Shown: one piece after another, positions 314-20,637 of the stretch
How the letters are laid out: every line of letters begins with the position of its first letter
How positions within the stretch are numbered: position 1 is the first letter of the stretch
Assembly: GCF_000799465.1 (NCBI RefSeq)
Contig: NZ_JUGU01000001.1
Span: forward strand, 2,624,501-2,688,500
Length of the DNA: 64,000 bases
DNA from: Psychroserpens sp. Hel_I_66
GTDB lineage: Bacteria; Bacteroidota; Bacteroidia; Flavobacteriales; Flavobacteriaceae
Reading direction: 5' to 3'
Translations under genes and position numbers: made by a program
Notes under the pieces: model-generated
Database searches by the model: none
Seen by the model: only the letters and a program-made list of their open reading frames with translations
Told to the model about the DNA's origin: nothing

Positions 314-1528
314 ATGCAATCATTTTCAACTACATCTTGGTTAAATTTTCCCCGACTTTATACGCAGTCAATAATTAAGGAAATAAATTCAAAAGGAAAG
401 GAGCACATTCTCAAAGTAGATGAAAATGAATATGTAAACTATCTAATCGAAAAATACCGACTTGAACCCTTAAAAATTCTTCATGAAACTGAAGAGATTT
501 CTAATCCAGTTAAATCACAAGAAATGCAAAGAGATAGGTTTGGACGAGAATTTATGTCTAACTCTTGGACTTTTAAAATAACGTATCGATTCGAAGGTAG
601 CGCGGTTTTATTTAGTGTTATACCCAATCCAAACGTTCACTCAAATTATGATATACAAATTGACAAACAAAATAACCTTGTTTCATTTTATATAAAAATT
701 TTCAGACAAGATGCTTCAGAGTTCCAAAAAGTAAAGTCTTCATGCTATACAAATGCTTTTGATAATATTAAATACGTGAATGATAATGTGACTCAATCAA
801 ATGTCACCTTTGAAGATAATATTAGAACATTGTTCTCTCGTGAAAAAAATAAATATAAAGAGGAAAATGATTTTTTTGCTGCTATAAATGTAAAAGTTAA
901 TGAAAATACTCAATCTATTTTTTCCGCACCAACAATAAAGAAGAAAATAATTAAGCAACCTTCAGTTTCTAAAAATAAAGAATTCAATTCTGTTCCTTCG
1001 ATGAGTCAAGAAATGTATGATGATGTATTAAAAGTCATATACGACTCTGGGAAAAGCATGGAAAAGAAACCAGCTTTATATATCGGAAAAGATGAAGAAG
1101 GTTTAAGAGACCAATTTTTGTTTGTTTTAGAAACCAGATATGAGGGAACAACGGCCACTGGAGAAACATTTAATCGTGGCGGACGGGCTGATATCATATT
1201 AAAATATGCTGATGATGGCACAAATTTGTTTATAGCGGAATGTAAATTTTGGTACGGAAGTTCGGAGTTTTTAAAAGCGATATCGCAACTATTTGATAGA
1301 TATTTAACTTGGAGAGATTCGAAAGTAGCTATTATGATTTTTGTTCAAAATAAGGATTTTTCAAACGTACTAAAAACAATAAAATCTGACATTTCAAATC
1401 ATGATTATCATTTGAAATATATTGGAGAAAAAGGAGAATCTTCTTTTTCCTATGAATTTCATCTGCCACAGGATAATGATAAAAAAGTTGAAGTAGAAAT
1501 AATGATTTTTCATTTCGACAAAAAATAA
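314..1528 (+). CDS. PD-(D/E)XK nuclease-like protein of unknown role
   Basis: 404 residues. The C-terminal third carries a restriction-endonuclease-like signature: Asp293 in GGRADIIL, then Glu309 and Lys311 in FIAECKFW, matching D...E-x-K of the PD-(D/E)XK superfamily and fitting a predicted beta-hairpin core. The N-terminal two thirds are not recognised. There is no signal peptide or membrane segment, so it is expected to be cytoplasmic. The ATG at 314 has no clear ribosome site, as is common in Bacteroidota. The gene stands alone between two copies of the intergenic repeat, in a region with other defence-type genes, so a nucleic-acid-targeting defence role is possible. That role is inference; the fold call rests on the motif only. 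Confidence 0.7.
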   Translation: MQSFSTTSWLNFPRLYTQSIIKEINSKGKEHILKVDENEYVNYLIEKYRLEPLKILHETEEISNPVKSQEMQRDRFGREFMSNSWTFKITYRFEGSAVLFSVIPNPNVHSNYDIQIDKQNNLVSFYIKIFRQDASEFQKVKSSCYTNAFDNIKYVNDNVTQSNVTFEDNIRTLFSREKNKYKEENDFFAAINVKVNENTQSIFSAPTIKKKIIKQPSVSKNKEFNSVPSMSQEMYDDVLKVIYDSGKSMEKKPALYIGKDEEGLRDQFLFVLETRYEGTTATGETFNRGGRADIILKYADDGTNLFIAECKFWYGSSEFLKAISQLFDRYLTWRDSKVAIMIFVQNKDFSNVLKTIKSDISNHDYHLKYIGEKGESSFSYEFHLPQDNDKKVEVEIMIFHFDKK

Positions 1529-6947: not shown

Positions 6948-7079
6948 GGCACAACACCGGATATAATTATTTGCTTTGGCTAATGCTTATCTGGAAAATT
7001 TCTTTGGAATTTTCTCCGTAAGTATTTGTTTACTAAATTAGTTGCTGAACCACGCAACTAGTCATACACAAAACGCTAA
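6948..7079. repeat. Cassette-boundary-like repeat, copy C
   Basis: The left arm near 6958-6974 and right arm 7054-7069 pair at about 11 of 16 positions. An inner hairpin of the form GGAAAATT...AATTTTCTCC lies at 6992-7017. The right end (7034-7079) reads AAATTAGTTGCT, ACGCAACTAGTCATACACA, nearly the same as copies B, D and E. It lies between the HNH gene and the 3' end of the toxin-antitoxin pair. Confidence 0.6.
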
Positions 7080-8086
7080 ACGTGAATTAATTCAAAAGAA
7101 TACTTATAATCTATTAATCCTTTACTTTTCTCATTGTCAATCCACGCTTTTTCTTCGTGACTTAATTCTCTTATCTCTTTCGCATTATACTTTTCGAATT
7201 TTGAAACAATTTCATCTAAAATATCTATTTCAGCTTTATCAAATAATGTACTCTTAAATATTTTTGATGGGATTTTAATAAACTCTTCACCAACTAAACC
7301 ACTTGGATATTGAACTGAAATTAAATCAACAATTTGCTGGTCTGAAAGGTAATCGAATAATGTTCTAAATTTCTTAGGAACTGGACCGTGTGTATGAGCA
7401 AAATAACGTGTTCCACTTATTGAAACACCTGTTAATTTGTAATTTAAAAAATCTGAATAAAATAATAGTTTATTCATTTTGGTAGGAGTTACTTGTACCT
7501 TTTCAGTAAAATACACTACCATTTCAACAAGTTTATCAAAATTTGGTTTTTTATAACCTGAAAAATTATCAGGCAAAACATTATAATCAAAAACATAGTC
7601 AATCAATTCTTGCTTTCTTTTATTTAGTTCTTCTTCCTTTCTAACTTTGGCAATATTTTTTAAAAACTTCTCTCTTTGAGATTCTGAAATTTCATTATTA
7701 CTTTTTATCAATCCTTTTAATGTTCCTTCACTATTAATTACAGCTTTTAATAAAGCAGCATTAGCCAAACTAGGAACTTCTCCTTTTTCATAATTACTAT
7801 AACTATTAACACCTAAACCTAATACTTTCGTTATATCTGCATAACTAAAAGAGTATTTTTCTCTAAATTCTCTTATTTCTTCTGCAAATGGAACATTATG
7901 TTTATCTCTATACTGATTATAAACTTGATTTAAATTAAATTCATCTAACTCTGTGGTTGTAAATGACTCACCACTATCTTCACAAAAATAACTCTTGTGA
8001 TTATACTCAAATTCTTCTTTTCGAAAAACCAAAATACTCTTCTCAATTTGTAAGGTCATTTCCTTACCTGTGATTGGACTTTTCAT
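7076..8086 (-). CDS. Antitoxin: MqsA-like N-terminus plus HTH fused to a Panacea (DUF4065) domain
   Basis: 336 residues. Residues 1-50 resemble the metal-binding N-domain of MqsA, but of the four cysteines only Cys35 remains; the others read Ser3, Thr6 and Ser38. Residues 65-120 are an Xre-type HTH with LGLGVNSYSNYEKGE, close to MqsA. Residues about 185-335 are a Panacea/DUF4065 domain (KLVEMVVYF, KMNKLLFYSDF, GTRYFAHTHGPVP), the domain that neutralises diverse toxins in PanAT systems. It is encoded 13 bp downstream of an MqsR-like toxin gene, the toxin-first order of mqsRA. It probably binds its own promoter through the HTH. The loss of zinc ligands suggests that the N-domain fold no longer needs metal. 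Confidence 0.8.
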   Translation of the reverse strand: MKSPITGKEMTLQIEKSILVFRKEEFEYNHKSYFCEDSGESFTTTELDEFNLNQVYNQYRDKHNVPFAEEIREFREKYSFSYADITKVLGLGVNSYSNYEKGEVPSLANAALLKAVINSEGTLKGLIKSNNEISESQREKFLKNIAKVRKEEELNKRKQELIDYVFDYNVLPDNFSGYKKPNFDKLVEMVVYFTEKVQVTPTKMNKLLFYSDFLNYKLTGVSISGTRYFAHTHGPVPKKFRTLFDYLSDQQIVDLISVQYPSGLVGEEFIKIPSKIFKSTLFDKAEIDILDEIVSKFEKYNAKEIRELSHEEKAWIDNEKSKGLIDYKYSFELIHV

Positions 8087-8099
8087 AATTGTTTGTTTT

Positions 8100-8456
8100 T
8101 TAGTTTAATTTCTTAAGTGGAAATTCCATTGGATGTTCCGCCTTATGAAAAGAGATGCAAACTGCTCCTCCAGTCATTTTTGAAATAGTCAATTTAATAT
8201 AGACTTGTTGACCTTTAATAACCTTTCCGAAAACCCACATTTCTGTTCCACCTTGTTGAGTTTCTTCTAAAGGACCTTCACTGTAATCCTTTACTTCTAA
8301 ATTCAAAATTATTTCTTCACGCATTTTAGGGGTAATACTTAAATCTGCAAGATTCTGAATACTGTTTTTAGGACGATTGTAGAAGATTATGCCTAAAGAC
8401 TTAATAATCGCCTGAAGTTCTTGCAAAAAAAGTTTGATAACTAACTTATCTGCCAT
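8100..8456 (-). CDS. MqsR-like toxin
   Basis: 118 residues. The core (ILNLEVKDYSEGPL, then EMWVFGKVI, VYIKLTI, CISFHKAEHPM) has the strand order and spacing of MqsR/RelE-fold mRNA interferases, in which a Lys and aromatic residues act on mRNA in a ribosome-linked or free manner. The family call is from pattern memory. It is the first gene of a two-gene minus-strand operon with the MqsA/Panacea-type antitoxin after 13 bp. It is transcribed against its neighbours, as self-contained toxin-antitoxin cassettes often are. The 8457-8600 stretch upstream is AT-rich and should hold the promoter. Confidence 0.7.
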   Translation of the reverse strand: MADKLVIKLFLQELQAIIKSLGIIFYNRPKNSIQNLADLSITPKMREEIILNLEVKDYSEGPLEETQQGGTEMWVFGKVIKGQQVYIKLTISKMTGGAVCISFHKAEHPMEFPLKKLN

Positions 8457-8599
8457 ATTAACGTGTTAAATTCTTCGCAAATATAAGTATAATTAATTTA
8501 CTACAATTTTAAAGTGATATTATTAACATATTATCAACAATAAATCAACTTTAAAGTGAATAAGGAAGATTTGACAAAATTTTTGTAATACATTTAAAC

Positions 8600-8702
8600 C
8601 TAGAGCATACTTTCGAAAGTCTATCGGACTTTCTATCTGTGATTTATTTACTAAATTAGTTGCTTAAATACACAACAAAATCATATAATAGACGGTTGTG
8701 CA
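8600..8702. repeat. Cassette-boundary-like repeat, copy E
   Basis: It contains a perfect 7-bp hairpin GAAAGTC/GACTTTC (8615-8633), then TTTACTAAATTAGTTGCT and a right end AAATACACAACAAAATCATATA that follows copies B and C with some changes. CACAAC (8671-8676) and GTTGTG (8695-8700) also pair. It separates the toxin-antitoxin operon from the AbiC-like gene. Confidence 0.55.
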
Positions 8703-8707
8703 TAATT

Positions 8708-9733
8708 ATGAATAAAAATAAGGAAGAAGACAAGCACAAAAAACTAGTAATATTTAATGCCATAGCAATTGTATTAGTCCTATGGATTGTCAGCTGGTTA
8801 ATAATAGATTATTTCATTTTTCCAAAAACTTTTTTAGATAATCAAACAGTAATAAGTGAACGTGGAGCTTTTGGAGATAAATTCGGGTTTGTAAATTCAT
8901 TGTTTTCAGGATTAGCATTGACTGGAATTATAATTTCTATTTATTTCCAACAAAAAGAATTGTCACTGCAAAGGGACGAGTTAATTGAAACTAGAGAAGA
9001 GTTTAAAGATCAGAATTTTCAAACTACATTTTTCAATCTTCTAAAAACACAAAGGCAACTTGCAGAAGAGATAAAAATCGATATTTGGGATGTAAATTCG
9101 TCAAATGAGCCCAAAAAAACTGAAATTACTGGAAGGTTTTTCTTCAATAACTCTAAATCGGAATTAAGAAGAATATTAAATGCATTGGATTTTGAGTCAT
9201 ATGTAAATTATTTTGATTGGAAAGATTATTCAAGAATATTCGATCCTTCTGGTGATGAATACATAAAGAATTTAGACAATTTAAAAAAAATATCATATTC
9301 GATTAGTTATTATAAAATATCAAAGGAAATCTGGGAAGATTCTAAAAATTTGGATAAAATTGAATTAGCTAGGATTTCATATGGGATTTTTTTACATAGG
9401 TTTCATTTTGTCATGGGTCATTACTTTAGGCATTTATATCATATTTTAAACTTTTTGGAAGAAAAAGAAACGGAAAGAAAAATAGATAAGAAAGATTCCG
9501 ATATACAAGACGTAATTAATGAATATCAAACTTATGCAAATTTTATTCAGGCTCAAATGACAACTCCTGAACTATTTCTTTTATTCTATAATTCTTTATC
9601 CTTTCCAAAGCTTCAAAGTCTCTTAATTAGATATAACATTCTTGAAAACCTAGCAATAGAAGATTTGATTTTAAAAGAACATAACTGTGTTCAAGGTATT
9701 AATTTAAAAAGCAGATCTGAATTACTAAAATAA
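8708..9733 (+). CDS. AbiC-like phage abortive infection protein
   Basis: 341 residues from ATG 8708; an upstream in-frame TTG (8660) lies inside the repeat element and is less likely. Two membrane segments (about 12-34 and 58-82) are followed by a short coiled coil (LSLQRDELIETREEF) and the phrase FQTTFFNLLKTQRQL, then a helical domain with MGHYFRHLYHIL. This order is that of putative phage abortive infection proteins (AbiC-like). In known Abi systems, infection triggers growth arrest or death of the host cell; the exact trigger and activity of this family are not settled. It stands alone on the plus strand, next to a restriction-modification gene, which supports a defence role. Confidence 0.75.
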   Translation: MNKNKEEDKHKKLVIFNAIAIVLVLWIVSWLIIDYFIFPKTFLDNQTVISERGAFGDKFGFVNSLFSGLALTGIIISIYFQQKELSLQRDELIETREEFKDQNFQTTFFNLLKTQRQLAEEIKIDIWDVNSSNEPKKTEITGRFFFNNSKSELRRILNALDFESYVNYFDWKDYSRIFDPSGDEYIKNLDNLKKISYSISYYKISKEIWEDSKNLDKIELARISYGIFLHRFHFVMGHYFRHLYHILNFLEEKETERKIDKKDSDIQDVINEYQTYANFIQAQMTTPELFLLFYNSLSFPKLQSLLIRYNILENLAIEDLILKEHNCVQGINLKSRSELLK

Positions 9734-9876: not shown

Positions 9877-12800
9877 ATGACAACAAAAGAATACATAGAT
9901 ATAGTAAGCAAAAGACTTCAATCTGGAATATCAAGAGAACATTCATATAGAGGAGATTTAGAAACACTAATTAGAGAATTAGTAAAAGGAATTGAAATAA
10001 CAAACGAACCTGCAAACGTAACTGATTGTGGAAACCCAGATTATGTAATCACAAAAGGAAAAATTCCTGTTGGTTACATTGAAGCAAAAGATATTGGAAA
10101 AGACTTAAACAGTAAATCGTATAAAGAACAATTTGGACGTTACAAAAAAGCACTTGACAATCTAATAATTACAGATTACATATGGTTTCAATTCTTTCAA
10201 CACGGAGAGTTAGTTCATGAAATAAAAATCGGAGAAATTGAAAACAATTCAGTTAAACCAATTCCCGAAAACTTTTCAAAGTTTGAGAACTTAATAAAAG
10301 ACTTTTCTACTCACATTGGACAAACCATAAAATCGTCAAAAAAATTGGCAGTAATGATGGCTGGTAAAGCACGTCTATTACAAGATATTTTAGAACGTGT
10401 AATTACATCTGATGAAGAAACACAGGAAAACACTTCCTTAAAAGGACAATACGACACTTTTAAACAGATATTAATTCACGATTTAAAACCTAAAGATTTT
10501 GCAGACATATACGCTCAAACTTTGGCTTATGGAATGTTTGCAGCTCGTTTGCACGACCCAACTTTAGACGATTTTAGCCGACAAGAAGCAGCGGAATTAA
10601 TACCAAAATCAAATCCTTTTTTACGTAAACTTTTTGGATACATTGCTGGACCAGATATTGATGAAAGAATTGTAACAGTAGTTGACAACCTTGCAGAAGT
10701 TTTTAGAGCTACAAACGTTGAACAACTTTTAAAGAATTTTGGAAAAGCAACTCAAATGCACGACCCAATAATTCACTTCTACGAAACTTTTTTGGCAGAA
10801 TACGACCCAAAATTACGTAAAGCAAGAGGTGTTTGGTACACACCAGAACCAGTTGTAAATTTTATAGTTCGTGCAGTTGACGATATTTTAAAAAACGAAT
10901 TTGATTTACCACAAGGTTTAGCAGATACGAGTAAAACCAAAATAAAATTAGACACTCAAACGCCTGATAAACGTTCTGCAACAGGATATAAACAAATAGA
11001 AAAAGAAGTACACAAAGTTCAAATACTTGACCCAGCAACAGGAACAGGAACATTTTTAGCAGAAGTTGTAAAATTTATTTATAACAAAAACTTCAAAGCA
11101 ATGAAAGGTGCTTGGAGTGGCTATGTAGAAGAACATTTAATACCAAGATTAAACGGTTTTGAGTTGTTAATGGCTTCCTACTCTATGGCACATCTTAAAT
11201 TAGATATGTTACTAACGGAAACTGGTTATAAATCAACTAAAAATGAACGTTTAAATGTTTATTTAACCAATTCACTAGAAGAACATCACAAAGATACAGG
11301 GACTTTATTTTCTAATTGGTTAAGTAGTGAAGCTAATGAAGCTAACCATATAAAACGTGATACACCTGTTATGTGTATTATTGGTAATCCACCATATAGT
11401 GGAGTTTCATCAAATAATGGAATTTGGATTACAGATTTAATTGACAAATACAAAAAAGAACCAGATGGCAGTAAATTAAAAGAACAAAATTCAAAATATC
11501 TAAATGACGATTATGTTAAATTTATTAGATATTCTGAATTTTTAATTAATAAAAACGGAGAAGGAGTCTTGGCTTTTATCAGTAATAATGGATACATAGA
11601 CAACCCAACTTTTAGGGGAATGAGAGCAGTACTCGCTGAATCTTTTAATGACATATATATTATTGACCTTCACGGAAGTACAAAAAAGAAAGAAGTTGCA
11701 CCTGACGGCTCATTAGACCAAAATGTCTTTGATATTATGCAAGGAGTAGCTATTATAATTGCTGTAAAGAAAAATAATGATAAAAATGATGCTACAATTC
11801 ATCATTATGATTGCTATGGCAAAAGAGATTACAAATATAAATTCCTCATAGAAAATTATTTAGGCTCAATAAATTTTGACTTATTCAAACCAAGTTTACC
11901 ATTTTATAATTTCTATAGTATTGACGACCAACTTCAAGAACAATATTATAAACTAATAAGTTTAGATAAATTATTCATTAATAATTCAGTAGGTATTAAG
12001 ACATCAAGAGATAATTTATTGATAGCAGAAAGTAATACGATTTTAAAGGAAAACCTTAAATACTTTTTTGAAAATGAGGAAAAAGATGTCGAACAAAAGT
12101 TTGGTATCAAGTTTAACTCAAAGTGGAAACACCAAAGCCTTATTGATACACTAGAATATGAAGTTATTACAGAAGATATTAAAGGAATAACTTATAGACC
12201 ATTTGATAATATGTTTGTTTGTTACAACAGAAGTTTAGTGGATAGAGATAGAATTAAGGTAATGAGAAACTTACAATTCAAAAATAATTCTTTGATTGTA
12301 GGCAGACAAGGTCAAGCAGTCGCTGGAGATTCTTGGAATTTAATTTTTACAACGAATACAATTAGTGATATGAATGTATTCGCTCGTGGTGGTGGTATGG
12401 CTTTTCCTCTTTATTTATATCCAAGTATTGAGGATGGGATATTCACTGAAGAGAAACGTAAACCAAATCTCAATTTAGATATTATAACTGAAATTTCAGA
12501 AAAACTAGGTTTAACTTTTACTAACGAAAAAGAACAAACTAATAACACTTTTGCACCAATAGATATTTTAGATTACATCTATGCAGTTCTACACTCGCCT
12601 ACTTACAGAGAAAAATACAAGGAGTTTTTAAAAATAGATTTCCCAAGAGTTCCTTATCCAAAAGATGAAAGAACGTTTTGGAGTTTAGTAAAACTTGGTA
12701 AAGAAGTAAGAGAAATTCACTTGTTAGAAAGCACGAAAGTTGAAGATTACATTACAAGTTATGAAATGGCAGAAGATGCAGAAAACGACCATAATGTAAT

Positions 12801-13074
12801 TACAACAAAAATTGGAAAGAAAGATTGGGAAATAACCGACACCGAAAAGCAATTGGGTAGAATTTGGATAAACGAAAGCAAATATTTTGACAACATTCCT
12901 GTAACTGCTTGGGAGTTTTATATTGGAGGTTATCAACCAGCACAAAAATGGCTGAAAGACAGAAAGGAAAGAGAATTAAAATTTGAGGATATTTTACATT
13001 ATCAGAAAATTATAGTTGCTCTAACTGAAACAGATAGAATAATGAAAGAAATAGATAAAATAGAAATTGAATAA
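9877..13074 (+). CDS. Single-chain restriction-modification enzyme, type ISP/IIG-like
   Basis: 1065 residues. An N-terminal nuclease motif is visible: Asp55 in NPDYVIT, then Glu69-Ala-Lys71. The methyltransferase has motif X-like GVWYTPEPVV (about 324), motif I DPATGTGTFLAEVV (about 385) and motif IV NPPY (504-507), typical of adenine-N6 (gamma-type) enzymes. The last 400 residues match the target-recognition C-domain of type ISP enzymes. I see no helicase motifs between nuclease and methylase, so it is the helicase-free form. It combines cutting and protective methylation in one chain and needs no partner. The long leader after 9733 contains only a poor copy of the intergenic repeat. Confidence 0.88.
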   Translation: MTTKEYIDIVSKRLQSGISREHSYRGDLETLIRELVKGIEITNEPANVTDCGNPDYVITKGKIPVGYIEAKDIGKDLNSKSYKEQFGRYKKALDNLIITDYIWFQFFQHGELVHEIKIGEIENNSVKPIPENFSKFENLIKDFSTHIGQTIKSSKKLAVMMAGKARLLQDILERVITSDEETQENTSLKGQYDTFKQILIHDLKPKDFADIYAQTLAYGMFAARLHDPTLDDFSRQEAAELIPKSNPFLRKLFGYIAGPDIDERIVTVVDNLAEVFRATNVEQLLKNFGKATQMHDPIIHFYETFLAEYDPKLRKARGVWYTPEPVVNFIVRAVDDILKNEFDLPQGLADTSKTKIKLDTQTPDKRSATGYKQIEKEVHKVQILDPATGTGTFLAEVVKFIYNKNFKAMKGAWSGYVEEHLIPRLNGFELLMASYSMAHLKLDMLLTETGYKSTKNERLNVYLTNSLEEHHKDTGTLFSNWLSSEANEANHIKRDTPVMCIIGNPPYSGVSSNNGIWITDLIDKYKKEPDGSKLKEQNSKYLNDDYVKFIRYSEFLINKNGEGVLAFISNNGYIDNPTFRGMRAVLAESFNDIYIIDLHGSTKKKEVAPDGSLDQNVFDIMQGVAIIIAVKKNNDKNDATIHHYDCYGKRDYKYKFLIENYLGSINFDLFKPSLPFYNFYSIDDQLQEQYYKLISLDKLFINNSVGIKTSRDNLLIAESNTILKENLKYFFENEEKDVEQKFGIKFNSKWKHQSLIDTLEYEVITEDIKGITYRPFDNMFVCYNRSLVDRDRIKVMRNLQFKNNSLIVGRQGQAVAGDSWNLIFTTNTISDMNVFARGGGMAFPLYLYPSIEDGIFTEEKRKPNLNLDIITEISEKLGLTFTNEKEQTNNTFAPIDILDYIYAVLHSPTYREKYKEFLKIDFPRVPYPKDERTFWSLVKLGKEVREIHLLESTKVEDYITSYEMAEDAENDHNVITTKIGKKDWEITDTEKQLGRIWINESKYFDNIPVTAWEFYIGGYQPAQKWLKDRKERELKFEDILHYQKIIVALTETDRIMKEIDKIEIE

Positions 13075-13400: not shown

Positions 13401-13649
13401 TTATCCTAGAACATTTAAAATTAAGTTGATAAAATAATGACCTTTAAAAAGTAATTATAGCTGTAGATTCTTGTAATACTGGACCTTATCCGTTTCATCC
13501 TTGTTTACAAATAATTATTTCCCATACCCTCCAAAAAAACTTTTTATTTATTGAGATTGAAAATTATTTTTTTTAACTATTGTTTTCATTTTTATTATTG
13601 ATTTTATTTATTGATATTTTTGGTTTTATTCTAACACTAGTTTGAAATC

Positions 13650-13810
13650 AGCAACACCGTTGTTGTAAATCAGCAATAGCGTTGTTGCATTGTAGAAATG
13701 GTCTAGCAACAACGGGAGATACTATAAACGCTAGGATTTTACCATTGTGTGACAATGACAGCAACAGTCCAGCAACAATGTTGTTGCTATCCATCAACAA
13801 CGTTTTTTCA
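13650..13810. repeat. Six phased AGCAACAACGTTGTTGCT-type iterons
   Basis: Units start at 13650, 13672, 13705, 13760, 13771 and 13793. All start-to-start distances (22, 33, 55, 11, 22) are multiples of 11 bp. The fullest units (13650, 13672, 13771) are nearly perfect 18-bp palindromes; the others keep one half. Such helical phasing is the mark of a binding array for one protein on one face of DNA, as in replication origins, partition or recombination control sites. It lies just outside the gene cluster of the integrative element. Confidence 0.75.
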
Positions 13811-13848
13811 ATAATACTGCTGCTAGATTTTTAAGTTATAATCGATAA

Positions 13849-14094
13849 TCAAATTTGCTCAACTTCATCTGCATTAAAATCTCTTTTAATTTTTTGTATT
13901 AAGAATTTTATTAAATCATCCTTTTCAAAATTAGAAGCTGGATCGTAAAGATATCTGTACACGTCAACAACTCTTTTTTCATAATAATGCCCATGAACAG
14001 GGAATTTGCACAAATCCTCTGTGGCCCATTGTGTAAATGGTGATGACTTCCAAGCCGTTACCAAAAACATTAATATTTGATAATTTTTTTTCAT
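13849..14094 (-). CDS. Small unknown protein between two repeat arrays
   Basis: 81 residues, cytoplasmic, with aromatic and basic residues (LVTAWKSSPFTQWATEDL, then YEKRVVDVYRYLYDP) and a charged helical end. No family is recognised. It is the last minus-strand gene of the integrative element, downstream of the primase, and is framed by the 11-bp-phased array (13650-13810) on its 3' side and the GTGAGA array (14132-14318) on its 5' side. That position suggests a role in replication or control of the element, for example as a DNA-binding accessory protein, but no DNA-binding motif can be pointed to. Confidence 0.5.
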   Translation of the reverse strand: MKKNYQILMFLVTAWKSSPFTQWATEDLCKFPVHGHYYEKRVVDVYRYLYDPASNFEKDDLIKFLIQKIKRDFNADEVEQI

Positions 14095-14131
14095 TGTTTG
14101 ATAATTTTATAATAAAAACTAACAATTATTT

Positions 14132-14318
14132 TCTCACAATTACTCAGTACTGATAATCAGTTACTTAAATACTAAAATATCATTAAAGATGTGAGAAAGT
14201 GTGAGAAAATGAATTACACCTCTCACACATTCTCACACTTTCTCACGTACTTTCATCTTGTTATTAATATATAATATGTTGATAATCATATCACTAATGC
14301 CTCGTGAGAATTGTGAGA
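14132..14318. repeat. GTGAGA hexamer array with 17-bp inverted repeat
   Basis: GTGAGA occurs at 14191, 14201, 14304 and 14313 and its complement TCTCAC at 14132, 14221, 14231 and 14241, with steps of 9-10 bp inside clusters. The blocks 14191-14207 and 14230-14246 are perfect 17-bp inverted repeats. The array separates the primase 3' end from the start of the 81-aa gene. Likely roles are operator or origin of the element. Confidence 0.65.
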
Positions 14319-14354: not shown

Positions 14355-17300
14355 TTAAAAAGGTATATCTCCCTGTTTATCTTCTAAAATATTCCCAATT
14401 GATTCCTTGAGCGGTTCTGTTTCCATATTTGGACGGTATGGCACTGGAGGCATTTCAAATTCCTGTAAGCTGACCTCTGATTTAATAAGTTCGCTGATAT
14501 CATCCGGCATTTTCATTAGATCTACAATAATTGCACTAGATTGTACGCGAGGAAGACCTTTTTTAAAATCTACTCTTGGTGTATAGGAATGATAACTTGA
14601 ATCCTTTTCTAATGCTTCTTTCATAGTCGATTTGGCTGGAGCCGAATCCCTGTACTGCGTATACCACTGTCTCTGTAACTTGGAATAGCAATTGCTAAAC
14701 TGAAAATAAAAAAAGCTACCCTCCAGTTTAATCTCGCGACCTACTTTAATCTTATCATGATCGACACCTCGCATACTTGCGATAAAACAATCCCACCATC
14801 TTGAATTAATACTACTGCTGGTAAGTTTTCTCATTTGTGCAGTAGTGATCTTAGTAAAATGATCTAATATCTCACTTTGGGTAAACGGAAAGTCTATGAC
14901 GTCCTTTAGAACATTATAAAATGCTGTAAACGTGCTAATGTTTTTTAACATTCTTTTGTTGCAGTCTGGCATCCTTGCTTGGTAAACATCCATTAACAAT
15001 CTATACTCCTTATTGAAGTTTTTCTCTACCAATGCCCTATTCTTTAAAATGTTTACTGTGATATGCGTAACACCTTCATCTATGATATCATTAAGCTCAT
15101 TAAATGCCTTTTCATCTTCCTCATTGAAATCGGTTCTATTCATGTCGTTCCAAACAACCCTTGTGATAATTGCTGCATTATCTGGATATTCATTCCCTGT
15201 CAAAGAAACACCGCACAGAACAGGGATATTATCTGTGGCCACCCTACTTTCAATTTTCCCAATTTTCTTACCTCTCAAGTCCCATACGGATTTTATAGTT
15301 CCATCAAGTTCGCTGTCCCCCCTGCTATATTCGGACCACTCTAAAAGGGCATTGTTAAATTGTGCCAGCTCTCTAATAGTAGCTGTCTTTGTTGCATTCT
15401 TTCCTTCGAGGTTCGTCGCTGTCTGCGGTATTCCCCACAGACTCTTGACCGCGTGGTTCAGTTCGTCCTTACCCGTTCCCGGAGGACCATAGCTAAAATT
15501 TATTGGGAATCCTTTTAAGTTTTTAGCAACAATGTCATGGAACATGCAACTAATGGCATGGAAAATAGATGATATTGCGTGGGAACGATGGACACGTTTT
15601 ATTTTTCCGAAAAACTCCAAGGATGATATTGTGCCAGGAATGTGCCTAAACTGTTTTTGCGGAGTGTATTTATGGGGATTATTGCGATATATTATGTTTG
15701 CTGATGGAACATAATAACTGATTTCTTTAAATTGGAAACATCCATTCTGATCAATATCAATATTTTCTCCATCGGGAACTACGACTAGATTATTAAATAG
15801 ATAAAAACCTTCATGTTGCCATCCAAGAACCTCTAAACTCCTCCCATTACCCATCTTATCGAATAGCATAGCCTGTAATCTCAAAAGGTCCTCATTTTTC
15901 CCATGCCACCTGAAATTTCCAAAATTGGTCATTGCCTTTTGAAAAGAGCCATGACTGTTGAATGTTTCACTCGGTACATCAAAAACAAATGATTCGTTAA
16001 ATACATTTTTTGCAGAAACCAGTTTTTTTGGAAAATCCTCGTCTCTCATGTGCTGAATAATATTAATCGAAAAATTGCTGACATTGTTGAATTTGTAAGG
16101 AGGGTCGCTGTTTATTTGGCTATATACCTTATTGTTGGCCTGAAACATTTGGTACTTTTTAATATCCGAAAGTATTTGATCGGACATTTCTATTTCATAA
16201 GGTAACTGATACTCATTATCTGAAATAAAACGTTGTTCCTTAATGTTGGACCTGCTAGAGTCAAACTCTTTGATCCATTTATTAATTGTGGTCATGGATA
16301 CACCACTATCATTTTGCAACCACTTCTTATATGGACCTATTAAAGTGTCATCAGAAATTTCGCTTAGCAAATCACACAGGTTTTTTGCGATTTTTACTTT
16401 AGCAATCTCATCCTTACCGTTCAGTTCATCCAGAAGTAACCTGAAGCCATCCGTCTTTTCCGTTTCAACCTCTAAAACAGCTAATAGACCATTTTTATCA
16501 ATTTCCTTTACATTCATTCTGACAAAATCATCTGGATCGCAATCCTTGAATTTTATTACGAAACATCTAAAACCGCATGACAGAAATCTAGGTATGTTTT
16601 TCAATGAGGATTTTTGCCCAGCAATATCCCCGTCCATGCAAAAGACTACCGAGTCAGTGTACTTTTTAAGCTCCTTAATCTGATTATCGTGTATTGAAGT
16701 TCCACAGGGCGCTATGGCATTTAATATTTCATTTGTTTGGAAGGAGATAACATCATTGTAACCTTCCATAATATATGCAATATTGTTACTTCTTATCTCT
16801 TGCTTAGCCAAGTGCATTCCATACCAAATATGGTCCTTTTGATAGAGCTCGGTAGTTTTACCATTGAGCCATTTCACCTTAGGTGGATTTTTCAGTTCTC
16901 TGCCCGCAATACTCACGACTTCGCCAATAGAATCAAAAATGGGGTACACGACTCTATTAAAGAAAAAATCATGATTATTTGATATTACACTTATATCCTG
17001 CCCCTGCTTAACGATTCCCCTTTCCTTAAAATTATTGTACACAAATTTATCTCCTGGAGCGTATCCTATTTTATATGTTTTGATTATTGCGTCAGTGTAC
17101 TTCCTCTTTCCGAAAATTTCTTTGAACGCCGGGTGGTTCTTGTCGAGAGTCTTTAAGTTGTTATGGTACATTTCAACAACATTATTTAAATAAGGTCGTA
17201 CCTCATTTTTCCTAAGTTGTTTTTCTTGAAATGACTTTGCCTCCTTGGAGTTGTCATAGACTATCTCCTTAGATTGATTTTTGGCAATGTACTCAATGGC

Positions 17301-17549
17301 ATCTATATAATTATAACCCTTTGCCATCAAGAAACTAAGAGCGTTGTTACCGCCCTTTCCCGAAGAAAAATCTTTCCATATTTGTTTCCTTGGACTTACC
17401 ATGAAACTTGGGGTTTTTTCTTTCGTAAAAGGTGATAATCCCTTTAAATTTGAGCCTTCTTTTTTTAAATCGACAAAGTCCTTGACTATATCCTCTATTT
17501 GAGTACTGTCAATTAAATTTTCAATAAATTCTTTGGATATATAAGCCAT
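14355..17549 (-). CDS. Primase-helicase of the integrative element
   Basis: 1064 residues. Residues 1-85 are a DnaG-type N-domain in which all four zinc ligands are replaced (Ser39, Thr42, Asp60, Ser63 in GLSPFTKEKTPSF and WKDFSSGKGG). A primase core follows, with Toprim residues in MEGYNDVISF and the acidic FCMDGDIAGQ. The C-terminal half holds a P-loop ATPase (SYGPPGTGKD) with a Walker-B-like LLEWSEYS region, giving a fused primase and helicase-like motor. Such proteins start replication of the excised element. Antisense open frames in this gene are shadows. It is preceded by a terminator (17688-17723), so it is probably its own transcription unit, and it is followed by the GTGAGA array. 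Confidence 0.85.
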   Translation of the reverse strand: MAYISKEFIENLIDSTQIEDIVKDFVDLKKEGSNLKGLSPFTKEKTPSFMVSPRKQIWKDFSSGKGGNNALSFLMAKGYNYIDAIEYIAKNQSKEIVYDNSKEAKSFQEKQLRKNEVRPYLNNVVEMYHNNLKTLDKNHPAFKEIFGKRKYTDAIIKTYKIGYAPGDKFVYNNFKERGIVKQGQDISVISNNHDFFFNRVVYPIFDSIGEVVSIAGRELKNPPKVKWLNGKTTELYQKDHIWYGMHLAKQEIRSNNIAYIMEGYNDVISFQTNEILNAIAPCGTSIHDNQIKELKKYTDSVVFCMDGDIAGQKSSLKNIPRFLSCGFRCFVIKFKDCDPDDFVRMNVKEIDKNGLLAVLEVETEKTDGFRLLLDELNGKDEIAKVKIAKNLCDLLSEISDDTLIGPYKKWLQNDSGVSMTTINKWIKEFDSSRSNIKEQRFISDNEYQLPYEIEMSDQILSDIKKYQMFQANNKVYSQINSDPPYKFNNVSNFSINIIQHMRDEDFPKKLVSAKNVFNESFVFDVPSETFNSHGSFQKAMTNFGNFRWHGKNEDLLRLQAMLFDKMGNGRSLEVLGWQHEGFYLFNNLVVVPDGENIDIDQNGCFQFKEISYYVPSANIIYRNNPHKYTPQKQFRHIPGTISSLEFFGKIKRVHRSHAISSIFHAISCMFHDIVAKNLKGFPINFSYGPPGTGKDELNHAVKSLWGIPQTATNLEGKNATKTATIRELAQFNNALLEWSEYSRGDSELDGTIKSVWDLRGKKIGKIESRVATDNIPVLCGVSLTGNEYPDNAAIITRVVWNDMNRTDFNEEDEKAFNELNDIIDEGVTHITVNILKNRALVEKNFNKEYRLLMDVYQARMPDCNKRMLKNISTFTAFYNVLKDVIDFPFTQSEILDHFTKITTAQMRKLTSSSINSRWWDCFIASMRGVDHDKIKVGREIKLEGSFFYFQFSNCYSKLQRQWYTQYRDSAPAKSTMKEALEKDSSYHSYTPRVDFKKGLPRVQSSAIIVDLMKMPDDISELIKSEVSLQEFEMPPVPYRPNMETEPLKESIGNILEDKQGDIPF

Positions 17550-17733: not shown

Positions 17734-18015
17734 TTAAAATTGATTCATTTTTTTCAAAGCAAGTAGCACCTCACTTTTCTTATATCTTACTTTTGCTCCA
17801 ATACGATAAGCTGGGAATAAATTATCTTTCGTGTATTTCCAAAGAGTTACGAGTGAAATAGAAAGTAATTTAGCAGTTTCTTCTCTGGTCAATAAAATTT
17901 CGTCGTCCTTTTGATACTGTGAATCTTGTTTAAGAGCCAATTTAATTTCCCCTATGAGTTTGGGAATAAATTTAGATTCATTGGTGTTTTCAATTTGTAA
18001 AACTTGCTTTGTCAT
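17734..18015 (-). CDS. HTH DNA-binding protein, excisionase-like
   Basis: 93 residues from ATG 18015; a TTG at 18042 would add nine residues but the ATG has an AAAGGA ribosome site close by. Residues about 45-93 are a MerR-type winged HTH of the helix_turn_helix_17 group: LTREETAKLLSISLVTLWKYTKD then FPAYRIGAKVRYKKSEVL. Proteins of this kind beside tyrosine recombinases serve as recombination directionality factors or as activators of element genes. The N-terminal 40 residues are probably a short helix-rich extension. Downstream is a strong terminator. The function as excisionase is inference from context; the fold is clear. Confidence 0.82.
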   Translation of the reverse strand: MTKQVLQIENTNESKFIPKLIGEIKLALKQDSQYQKDDEILLTREETAKLLSISLVTLWKYTKDNLFPAYRIGAKVRYKKSEVLLALKKMNQF

Positions 18016-18085
18016 GTCCTTTGTTTTAGGATTATATGACAAATCTAGTTTAGATTAATTGTATTTAATTAGTTGGGTATGCCCA

Positions 18086-19183
18086 TCAAATACCCAAGTT
18101 AATCATTCGGTCAATAACAAAATTCCTAGCTTTTTTTATTTTTTCCTGTTGAACATAGACTTTTTTATTGTGGTCTAGTTCATTAGGTTTAAGATCTTCT
18201 GGTTTATCAGCTTTTATTGATGCAATATCATGTTTACGAAAAGCCTTTCTTAAATTACTAAGAGAACTATTCGAAATTTTCTTTAATTCTCTAGCATATT
18301 CAGAAGCTGTAAGATTCTCGAAATCATCCAGAGGAAGACCAACTAAATTCTTAAGTCTTTCTAGACTTACATAGTCAGAACCACCAATTTTAGAATTAAA
18401 TACTTTTAAATATTTGAATTGGATATCTATATCTAGGATTTCAAAATTAACATCCTTTTCTCTAAGTATATCAATGAAAGAAAATTGTTCTAGTGGTGTT
18501 AAATTTCTATAACCCGTAGTACCTTTATTTAAGGCACTTGCATCTTGTATGATTAAAAGTTCTTTTAAATAAAGACTTAATGCTTTTATCTTACCATATT
18601 CAATCCATTTGTCCATAAAAACTTTAAAACAATCATAAACCCGGTCATTCGTAGATAAATATCGTAATATGTGATGATTTTCACTATTTTCCCAAATCCA
18701 TATTAACCAGTCTTCACTCTTAAAAAATTCTTCCTGGTCCATTTCATAAAATCGTAAAAATTCACTTTTAGAATTAGGAGTTTTTAAATATTCTGAAAAA
18801 TTCCATATTTCGTTGTGTTTTTCATTCAAATAGTTAAGTTTATCTTCATGAGTTAGGTATTGACCTAATTCAAATTTAATTTCCTCTTTAGGAAGCTCAT
18901 ATCTATATTTAAAATATTTTTGAAGAATATCTTGAAGATCATTTAAAATATGGTTTACAATTTTAGGATTTAACTGATAGTCAAAAAAGTTGTATAAAAC
19001 CTCTGTTCCTTCTATATGAAAATTCTCGTTCGGTTTTACAAATACATTGTAATCTTCTTTAGGGAACTCATGACCTTTAAGAAAAATATTATTTTCTATA
19101 AGTTGAATCAATTGATCTTCATTAAGATTATATCCTTTGTCCAACGTAATAACATTTCTACACTTTGAGAAGTCCTTGTTCAT
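18086..19183 (-). CDS. Unknown protein translationally coupled to the integrase
   Basis: 365 residues with no recognised family. It has no signal peptide or membrane segments, is rich in charged and aromatic residues, and ends in a basic region (KKVYVQQEKIKKARNF) that could bind nucleic acid. Its ATG lies in an ATGA overlap with the integrase stop codon (19180-19183), so the two proteins are made together and probably work together. Similar hypothetical genes following integrases are frequent in Bacteroidota elements. It could be a recombination accessory factor, a regulator or cargo; there is no evidence to choose. Confidence 0.6.
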   Translation of the reverse strand: MNKDFSKCRNVITLDKGYNLNEDQLIQLIENNIFLKGHEFPKEDYNVFVKPNENFHIEGTEVLYNFFDYQLNPKIVNHILNDLQDILQKYFKYRYELPKEEIKFELGQYLTHEDKLNYLNEKHNEIWNFSEYLKTPNSKSEFLRFYEMDQEEFFKSEDWLIWIWENSENHHILRYLSTNDRVYDCFKVFMDKWIEYGKIKALSLYLKELLIIQDASALNKGTTGYRNLTPLEQFSFIDILREKDVNFEILDIDIQFKYLKVFNSKIGGSDYVSLERLKNLVGLPLDDFENLTASEYARELKKISNSSLSNLRKAFRKHDIASIKADKPEDLKPNELDHNKKVYVQQEKIKKARNFVIDRMINLGI

Positions 19184-20457
19184 AGTTTATCAAATTTGTT
19201 ATTTTGCCTGTCCCAATACTCACTAATTTTTTTGATGTGTTCATCTTGAGAAGCCTTTACATAATGGGTAAATTGAGCAATTGACTTATGTCCAGTTGCT
19301 GCCATGATTGTACTATTATCAATATCACCAGATAGAAACAAAACGCTACAAAAACTGCGTCTACAACTATGGCTAGTAATTAGCTCATATTTTGGATAAT
19401 GGTCAAACTTTTTACGCTTTGTTTCTGGATCCATTTTGTAACCGGGAGTTAATTGGTTTATACCTACATCTCTACAAATTTCTTTTATATAAATATTAAA
19501 TTTCTGACTTGATATCTTTGGCGGTAGTTTACCTTCCCTTTTTTCTAAAATTGATTTGAATTGAGGATGTATTGGTATAGTTAAGTTTTGATTGGTTTTG
19601 TGTGTGGTTATATTAATAACATTATTAAAGATGTTTTCTTTTGATATCCTTAAAAGATCCGATATTCTCAAACCAGTTCGTAATCCTATCACAAATAAGT
19701 CTCTAGTGTTGTCTAAGCGTTCTGAAGAACTAAAATCGTGATTATATATAAGATTAATTTCTTCATCATTAAGATAGGTGTCGATAGTATCGTTTTTAGG
19801 CAAGTTAAAATCCCTATGCTTATATTTTGGGTTTATTGGTAAACCATCCATTTCTGCATTTCGACAAAACGTTTTAATTCTTGAAACAATGGAACCTATA
19901 GTATTGTTACTTAACTTTTCTTCATTGACACAATATGAAATAAATTTACTATGAAAAGTTAAATCGATATCCTCAAACCTTAATTTTTGCTTACTATGGT
20001 TTTCAAAAGCTTGTAATTTCGACAAGGTTGTACTATAATTATTAAGTGATCGTTTCTTTAATTTTGCTCCATTAAACAAGCGTTCCTCTGCTCCTTTAAC
20101 GAATAACTCTACCCAATCGACAAAATATACCTTAGAGCTTTCATCAACAGACGTTCTGTTAAAAAATATACTTACATTCTCCTTAAGCCAAATCTTAGAA
20201 ATGTGTTTAGAAGTATTATACTCCAAATTATAATTATCAAAAATGAATTTTTCCAACTTAGACAATTGGCTATTTAATATATCTACATTAAGAGTTGAAG
20301 AATTTATTTTAATCCGCTGTTTTGATATAGACCAATTTTTAGGTTCAACATTAATTCCAGTTCGTACTTTTTGGTCGATTCTATTGCTATCCCAAAAACG
20401 TATGTATATACTGCTGTACTTTTTTTTACCTTTAACAATGAAAAACTTAATAGTCAT
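19180..20457 (-). CDS. Tyrosine recombinase (integrase)
   Basis: 425 residues. The arm-type N-domain is followed by a SAM-like core-binding domain (about 110-205) and a catalytic domain with the expected order: Arg in GLRTGLRISDLLRIS (about 260), Lys-containing ITTHKTNQNLTIPI, His-x-x-Arg in SHSCRRSF (about 367), His in GHKSIAQFTHY and the nucleophile Tyr in FTHYVKA (about 405). All catalytic residues appear present, so it should be active in integration and excision of the element. It is the outermost gene on the right side and abuts an intergenic stretch (20458-20751) where the attachment site is expected. It is co-transcribed with the 365-aa gene. Confidence 0.92.
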   Translation of the reverse strand: MTIKFFIVKGKKKYSSIYIRFWDSNRIDQKVRTGINVEPKNWSISKQRIKINSSTLNVDILNSQLSKLEKFIFDNYNLEYNTSKHISKIWLKENVSIFFNRTSVDESSKVYFVDWVELFVKGAEERLFNGAKLKKRSLNNYSTTLSKLQAFENHSKQKLRFEDIDLTFHSKFISYCVNEEKLSNNTIGSIVSRIKTFCRNAEMDGLPINPKYKHRDFNLPKNDTIDTYLNDEEINLIYNHDFSSSERLDNTRDLFVIGLRTGLRISDLLRISKENIFNNVINITTHKTNQNLTIPIHPQFKSILEKREGKLPPKISSQKFNIYIKEICRDVGINQLTPGYKMDPETKRKKFDHYPKYELITSHSCRRSFCSVLFLSGDIDNSTIMAATGHKSIAQFTHYVKASQDEHIKKISEYWDRQNNKFDKL

Positions 20458-20637
20458 CTAAAATATTTTGCCGAAATATTGCCGAAATTAGTTAATTTTA
20501 TTTAATTCACCTTAATTCATTTTAATAAAAAGATGAAATCTTACTAACATAACACGTTAAACAACAGATATTTTCGTCTATTCCAGGGGTTTTAATAAAA
20601 AATAAGATTAAGCGTGGTGACTTCCGCCTTGAGTACC

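Follow-up and report, generated by a model that had tools for sequence, protein, structure and literature searches.

An array of short repeats at positions 13650 to 13810 of the DNA analysed here – a stretch of 64,000 nucleotides from Psychroserpens sp. Hel_I_66, hereafter the window – carries the strongest 11-bp signal within the 64 kb. The array stands on an integrative island whose primase has a second set of iterons close to its stop codon, and it is probably not the origin of that primase. We read it, tentatively, as an initiator-binding, origin-like site that would be foreign to the primase module: a second origin, a decoy or a relic.

Anatomy and register of the array

The array, to which no strand is assigned, consists of slots for the heptamer AGCAACA and for its inverse, TGTTGCT, in a common 11-bp register. 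AGCAACA occupies slots at 13650, 13672 (matching at six of seven positions), 13705, 13760, 13771 and 13793 (again 6/7); TGTTGCT occupies those at 13661 (5/7), 13683 (6/7) and 13782 (7/7); and no slot from 13716 through 13749 matches either of them. A preliminary description had placed six palindromic iterons at the six forward starts, with steps of 22, 33, 55, 11 and 22 bp. Starts and steps are as it gave them, and four of the six units are indeed near-palindromes, these being P1 (13650..13667) and P2 (13672..13689), each of which agrees with the consensus AGCAACAACGTTGTTGCT at 15 of 18 positions, P3 (13771..13788), the best copy (17/18), and P4 (13793..13810), whose right half is degenerate (14/18). 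The other two, AGCAACAACG (13705..13714) and AGCAACAGTCC (13760..13770), both on the forward strand, are half-sites: each has the left half only (7/7 of AGCAACA) and matches at fewer than 11 of the 18 positions overall, the second forming an 11-bp direct repeat with the slot at 13771. Palindromic symmetry reaches 8/9 in P3 and only 5–6/9 in P1, P2 and P4.

That such spacing is unlikely to arise by chance, as the preliminary description supposed, was confirmed by a periodicity test against shuffled sequence: mean identity at multiples of 11 within the array is 0.367 (vs. 0.261), a value equalled in none of 3000 shuffles. Palindrome matches with up to three mismatches number three in the window compared to a mean of 0.02 over 100 shuffles. 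Between 13640 and 13815 all five forward half-sites that match at 8 or more of 10 positions fall in a single phase modulo 11, and the three in reverse orientation likewise agree on one; when the threshold is lowered to 7/10 the common phase is kept by six of seven forward and four of five reverse half-sites, and as many half-sites, at either threshold, were seen in 0 of 2000 shuffles. Of the periods from 7 to 24 tested on the array, none is conspicuous except 11 and, nearly as strong, its double, 22. The period-11 score of the array is 7.6 and that of the runner-up place in the 64 kb is 3.3; elsewhere in the 64 kb, period 9 reaches 7.3 and period 12 reaches 6.5, both being multiples of three, as expected in coding DNA. 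Over the whole host genome there is a single palindrome cluster of this kind, in addition to two scattered matches with three mismatches.

The preliminary description went further, and spoke of exact helical phasing along one face of the DNA. Over the length of the array this fails. B-DNA has a helical repeat of about 10.5 bp per turn, relative to which steps of 11 bp drift by some 17 degrees per unit; the two outer pairs, 121 bp apart, are offset by about half a turn, and the first and last units, 143 bp apart, by more. Because 11 bp differs from 10.5, no single continuous face extends over the array, and a face is common to neighbours only: cooperative contacts between neighbouring units are possible – a continuous single face is not.

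The 4-bp linkers 5' of the units agree at four of four positions within the left block and at three of four within the right, the linkers common within the blocks being AAATC (left) and TCCA (right). Between blocks, the 18-bp core is identical at 13–14 of 18 positions and the linkers at only one or two of four. A core that is kept while its linkers diverge fits selection on the 18 bp, and the pattern, in what is a small sample, suggests old 22-bp duplications together with selection on the core.

The island and the iterons of its primase

The island that carries the array is about 32.4 kb long and is integrated in tRNA-Leu(CAA). Its right attachment site, attR (TCCGCCTTGAGTAC, 20623..20636, forward strand), is identical to the end of the tRNA gene at 13 of 14 bases; attL is the end of tRNA-Leu(CAA) itself and lies left of the window (G000:C1:2612704-2612717). 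The tRNA gene was identified via similarity to sisters called by ARAGORN, which in three of the 11 sister-genus loci examined places a tRNA-Leu(CAA) to the left of the corresponding flanking gene, no more than ~0.3 kb from it. Of the features by which a PICI is recognised, an integrase with a specific att site is present, here as 13-bp repeats with the tRNA-Leu(CAA) end, ~32.4 kb apart, and the att repeats bear out the earlier view that the DNA belongs to an integrative element. Excision control, a function also proposed for the array, finds no support, the att sites being ~7 kb and ~25 kb away.

From the right end of the island the order is a tyrosine recombinase (the integrase; 19180..20457), a 365-aa protein of unknown function (18086..19183), a 102-aa HTH_17 protein that resembles excisionases (PHROG 66; 17734..18042) and a 1064-aa primase (14355..17549), all on the reverse strand, followed by iterons, an 81-aa gene, the array and the cargo. 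The cargo comprises a Type IIG/ISP restriction-methylation protein (9877..13074, forward), a putAbiC protein (8660-9733, forward), an MqsR-like protein that falls below the Pfam cut-off (8100-8456, reverse), a Panacea/MqsA-like antitoxin (7076-8086, reverse), a PDC-S54 candidate defence protein (314..1528, forward) and AbiU/AIPR. PADLOC models gave no match for the Panacea/MqsA-like, MqsR-like or putAbiC proteins (7076..9733), and a Pfam scan of 24 island proteins gave no virion structural protein. Judged by its genes, the island appears PICI-like in order and rich in defence cargo. The array is placed between converging genes, 3' of both (on the left, the closer ORF is a putative one of 41 aa). 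It had been described as lying beside the primase of the element; in fact the 81-aa gene and a second iteron set stand between the two.

The primase contains a DnaG zinc ribbon, DNAG_N and Toprim, plus – by eye – a Walker-A-like GPPGTGK in its C-terminal region. It is kin to primases of Duneviridae phages (39–40% identical to those of the Flavobacterium phages laban, 23T and 6H) and is 67–68% identical to the primases of a phage-like contig (L080) and of an element in Winogradskyella sediminis (L061). The other 22 genomes of the genus yielded one match of 23% identity, 21 having none. A contig scan with the single sequence found no relatives and one with an alignment did, giving 61 primase loci; one comparison used 48 of these and the others 47 relatives plus the window, the 14 loci left out being near-duplicates, fragments or broken frames as judged by eye (the 47 still include some near-duplicates). 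The Winogradskyella sediminis element (L061, 4782-13448) spans 8.64 kb between 25-bp repeats at a tRNA-Phe and carries an integrase, a 367-aa protein, an HTH protein, the primase, iterons and two unknown genes.

The iterons that adjoin the island's primase (TGTGAGAA, 14131..14318) occur in both orientations at 10-bp steps. When the 330 bp downstream of the primase stop codon were examined in the window and its 47 relatives, a repeated 8-mer exceeding 200 shuffles (p≤0.01) came up at 45 of the 48 loci, those without such a cluster being L063, L074 and L111. The motifs vary, many of them starting with TGT followed by G and A (TGTGAGAA, TGTCAGAA, TGTTGGAA, TGTTGAGA, TGTCCGAA), and nearly all loci have them in both orientations. 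This origin-like layout 3' of the primase is common to flavobacterial phages and integrative elements: the sequence of the repeat changes, its position stays. A motif that changes between elements within a constant layout suggests co-evolution of initiator and iterons. Inside the island's set lies TTATCAACA (14277..14285, reverse strand), which we take to be DnaA-box-like and which is present in the sister element L061 too. The 14131-14318 iterons are thus placed where, by comparison of the loci, the origin of the element's primase module would most likely be. The homologous primases of the Duneviridae (Flavobacterium phages 6H and laban) likewise have repeats 3' of the gene, similar to the 14131-14318 set; the 13650-13810 array has no place in this arrangement.

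What a reader of the sequence would take for one group of iterons is in this way resolved into two: in the window, the primase is followed by the 14131-14318 set, which lies within the 330 bp, and by the distinct array at 13650-13810, which lies beyond it (545–705 bp from the stop) and has another motif. No counterpart of the array was found in the 47 relatives, whose sequence was followed for up to 2.6 kb past the primase (for less in three of them). Per 180 bp, one relative has three half-sites, six have two and the rest have none or one, compared to eight in the window. Period-11 scores 3' of the primase are 7.6–7.7 in the window and 5.3, 4.1 and 3.9 in L101, L080 and L111. The score of L101 (at +180) falls over its own primase iterons; L080 comes nearest to a counter-example, scoring 4.1 at +570 (the array is at +550), and was rejected, the stretch being A-rich, not palindromic and provided with at most two half-sites per 180 bp. 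Relatives with integrase, HTH gene and primase in a row (L061, L063, L068, L069, L070 and L073) have other genes at the place of the array. The link to the primase drawn by the preliminary description is not supported by this comparison: the array is absent from all 47 relatives although each retains the primase, the very outcome that the description had named as speaking against it.

Three observations on the related elements may be added. In a Salinimicrobium element (L038:12087-12425), repeats of CCGTTGAA stand ~61–68 bp apart downstream of the primase iterons, in alternating contexts that give a unit of 129–132 bp. Flavobacterium circumlabens has two related elements in one genome (L069 and L073), with small peptides and a 719-aa protein 3' of the primase; the 719-aa protein of L069 is, by Pfam, a peptidase-C39 ABC exporter, as in bacteriocin export. 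At gathering score, Rfam families in L061, L063 and L069 are limited to tRNA.

An 11-bp step in phage initiator genes

By kind the array is an iteron array, and the searches made turned up no similar one. Among viral contigs a first motif pattern found four stretches, each with one exact match and none with a similar array, and a second pattern found 28, each with one match and at most five half-sites per 180 bp. A two-site pattern returned from 397 genomes of the family only the host's own genome and one other (G193), whose six half-sites in 180 bp have no common phase, and from 395 genomes of the phylum only the host's own match. BLAST of 13560-14100 against phages and plasmids gave only matches in the region of the 81-aa gene, with a query coverage of 10% or less and a best E of 4e-3. 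Among the open-access papers searched, none was recognised as describing the array.

A search with tandem half-sites led to phage genes that have repeats inside the gene. Three members, that of the host included, match PHROGs for DnaD-like helicase loaders or O-like replication initiators, and the name of the class (DnaD/O-like) rests on these three matches, Pfam Phage_rep_org_N / HTH_36 being below the cut-off except in L180. As a marker of the class the tandem TGTTGCT motif proved not to be specific: it found 79 stretches, compared to 73 for a reversed control, with 28 of the 79 inside initiator genes vs. 37 of the 73. The class was then sampled by protein rather than by motif. The best 80 of 91 loci (L314-L393) were taken, and 63 used after those with identical starts or of insufficient length were dropped (near-duplicates remain); the query alignment consisted of two sequences, and L185 had been found via the motif, its contig being in the sample as L325. 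After the N-terminal domain a periodic array (z≥4) is present in 43 of the 63 loci, with a period of 11 in 39, of 9 in three and of 12 in one. Eleven bp is the usual repeat step of this class and, because 11 is not a multiple of three, cannot be explained by coding. The cores of these arrays vary widely, CAACAA occurring in two of the 39, of which at least one is the query's own contig (L325).

The likeness between these arrays and that of the island is the 11-bp step. They run head-to-tail inside the initiator gene, whereas the island array is of mixed orientation, has gaps, stands outside any gene and has another core; cut into 90-bp pieces for scoring, the procedure applied to the class, it reaches 3.2–3.4, which is less than the threshold of 4. 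A search of the island with the N-domains of 71 viral proteins and the one of the host found no DnaD/O-like initiator (best E 0.09). The host genome has one DnaD-like initiator gene (G000:C1:2881809; E 3.6e-28), on another element and followed by a DnaC-like loader gene; its repeats are CAAAC-like by eye, and automatic scoring favours a period of 12, though weakly (z 3.0). That second integrative element (L310) consists of a recombinase fragment, a 260-aa protein, an HTH-like 94-aa protein, the DnaD-like initiator and the DnaC-like loader: its front module is similar to that of the island, its replication module is different.

Readings of the array and the gene beside it

Directly left of the array is the AT-richest stretch of the 64-kb window (13529..13643; GC 0.12–0.14 per 100 bp), which resembles a DNA unwinding element. 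The lowest-GC 100 bp (0.12) start at 13533, and all 100-bp windows with a GC of 0.14 or less start between 13529 and 13544. The array thus shares with iteron origins in general an AT-rich stretch beside the repeats. Of the replication origin first proposed for this DNA there remain a non-random array, an origin-like anatomy and an AT-rich neighbour; what falls away is the tie to the primase. From the array and its neighbourhood we infer that a protein binds there, which kind of protein this may be and what the site may do. A dimeric or winged-helix initiator would bind the AGCAACA half-sites cooperatively at steps of 11 and 22 bp and, once bound, would strain the AT-rich stretch at 13529-13643. 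The array might then be a second origin for an initiator supplied in trans by a helper or competing phage; alternatively, it might be a decoy for such an initiator, or the relic of a replication module that has been replaced. Against an origin-like site of this kind count the lack of a DnaD/O-like initiator in the island, the mixed orientation and the two CAACAA cores in 39 arrays of the class.

Known origins offer partial parallels. In the account of PMC5043065, oriLambda combines an AT-rich region and four iterons that are inverted repeats, and its repeated inverted sites of ~19 bp with an adjoining AT-rich stretch have their like at the array; plasmid iteron origins have units of 17–22 bp (as given in PMC5043065 and PMC4980987), similar to those of the array. 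Unlike these origins, the array has no cognate initiator gene beside it, does not lie inside an initiator gene, and includes half-sites and gaps. PICIs, as outlined in PMC6092414, carry a primase and an initiator, sometimes fused, followed by the origin, and in those of E. coli two iteron sets flank an AT-rich region. The island resembles them in its integrase, its HTH/excisionase-like gene and a replication protein of primase type with iterons of both orientations after it, and has a tRNA-type att site. It differs in its size (~32 kb), in its large defence cargo and in the extra 11-bp array, which is without counterpart in the PICI layout outlined there.

More specifically, the second array, being of another class, could capture or titrate an initiator brought by a phage, whether helper or competitor, such that the island is replicated by the phage or starves it. 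We regard this version as quite improbable. If the array does bind a foreign initiator it would be a device made of DNA only, against phage or for hitch-hiking. Calling it a decoy or helper origin carried by a defence island would go further than calling it an iteron array. There is a precedent for inhibition by origin DNA: lambda replication is blocked at initiation by plasmids bearing a portion of its origin (ITN3-4 iterons together with oop transcription), according to the summary in PMC3349717.

The array may instead be a cis-site for some other dimeric protein – a pac/cos site for the small terminase of a helper, a partition site, or the silencer or operator of an unannotated transcript – and we consider this a possibility of some weight, albeit an unlikely one. 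The array is palindromic, clustered and non-coding, and lies where replication module and cargo adjoin, with genes converging on it from both sides, all of which would suit such a site; for packaging, PICIs are described as carrying the cos sites of their helpers (PMC6092414). No similar array, however, was present in motif-matched viral contigs, in the BLAST against phages and plasmids, or in the 397 family and 395 phylum genomes, and an ordinary operator is unlikely at a place flanked by the 3' ends of two converging genes.

An explanation at the level of RNA, in which P1–P2 and P3–P4 are hairpins of a plus-strand RNA of ~170 nt (with P3–P4 as its terminator), or in which a plain terminator serves the converging genes, seems improbable. 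The P1–P2 hairpin is predicted at −19.5 kcal/mol, with a z of −5.4 on the plus strand, where by eye three G-U pairs assist the fold, and of −2.2 on the minus strand; the whole region of the array folds with z of −3.4 to −3.5 (plus) and −2.4 to −3.1 (minus). At 13777..13804 (plus strand) P3 and P4 form a terminator-like hairpin followed by a T-run, such sites numbering two compared to 0.3 in shuffles, and a TAnnTTTG box stands at 13615. Palindromic repeats, however, fold on both strands by construction, and P3–P4 alone has a z of only −1.6. Rfam matches in the region of the window are all sub-threshold, none reaching gathering score. TAnnTTTG is found 120 times in the window, and by eye there is no −33 box at the usual distance from the one at 13615. 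Hairpins leave the 11-bp register unexplained.

To much the same degree we doubt that the array is a degenerate tandem repeat, or a relic, without present function. The linkers common within each block are a sign of 22-bp tandem duplication, and the array is absent from every primase relative examined, both as this explanation would have it; against it stand the core that is kept beside diverged linkers, the symmetry of P3 (8/9, if only 5–6/9 in the others) and the AT-rich neighbour. It is very unlikely that the island's own primase binds the array and has its origin there: the gene is only ~0.5 kb away, yet primase loci have iterons of their own within 330 bp in 45 of 48 cases, the island included, and the array occurs in none of 47 relatives.

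The 81-aa protein encoded beside the array (13849..14094, reverse strand) has no match in Pfam or PHROG. It has one metagenomic homologue (65% identical), two weak matches besides its own in the 397 family genomes, and none in 395 genomes of the order. Its predicted fold (mean pLDDT 85, from three sequences) gave no match in PDB or BFVD at E 0.001. In L123 (1088-1695) a 79-aa homologue, 31% identical, is encoded directly 3' of a cluster of seven AGGTGTA iterons (0 of 300 shuffles), which in turn follows a 312-aa ORF from a phage family without assigned function – by eye, the ORF has the look of a helicase fragment. The two proteins appear to form a small FPVHxHY family, which may belong to replication modules.
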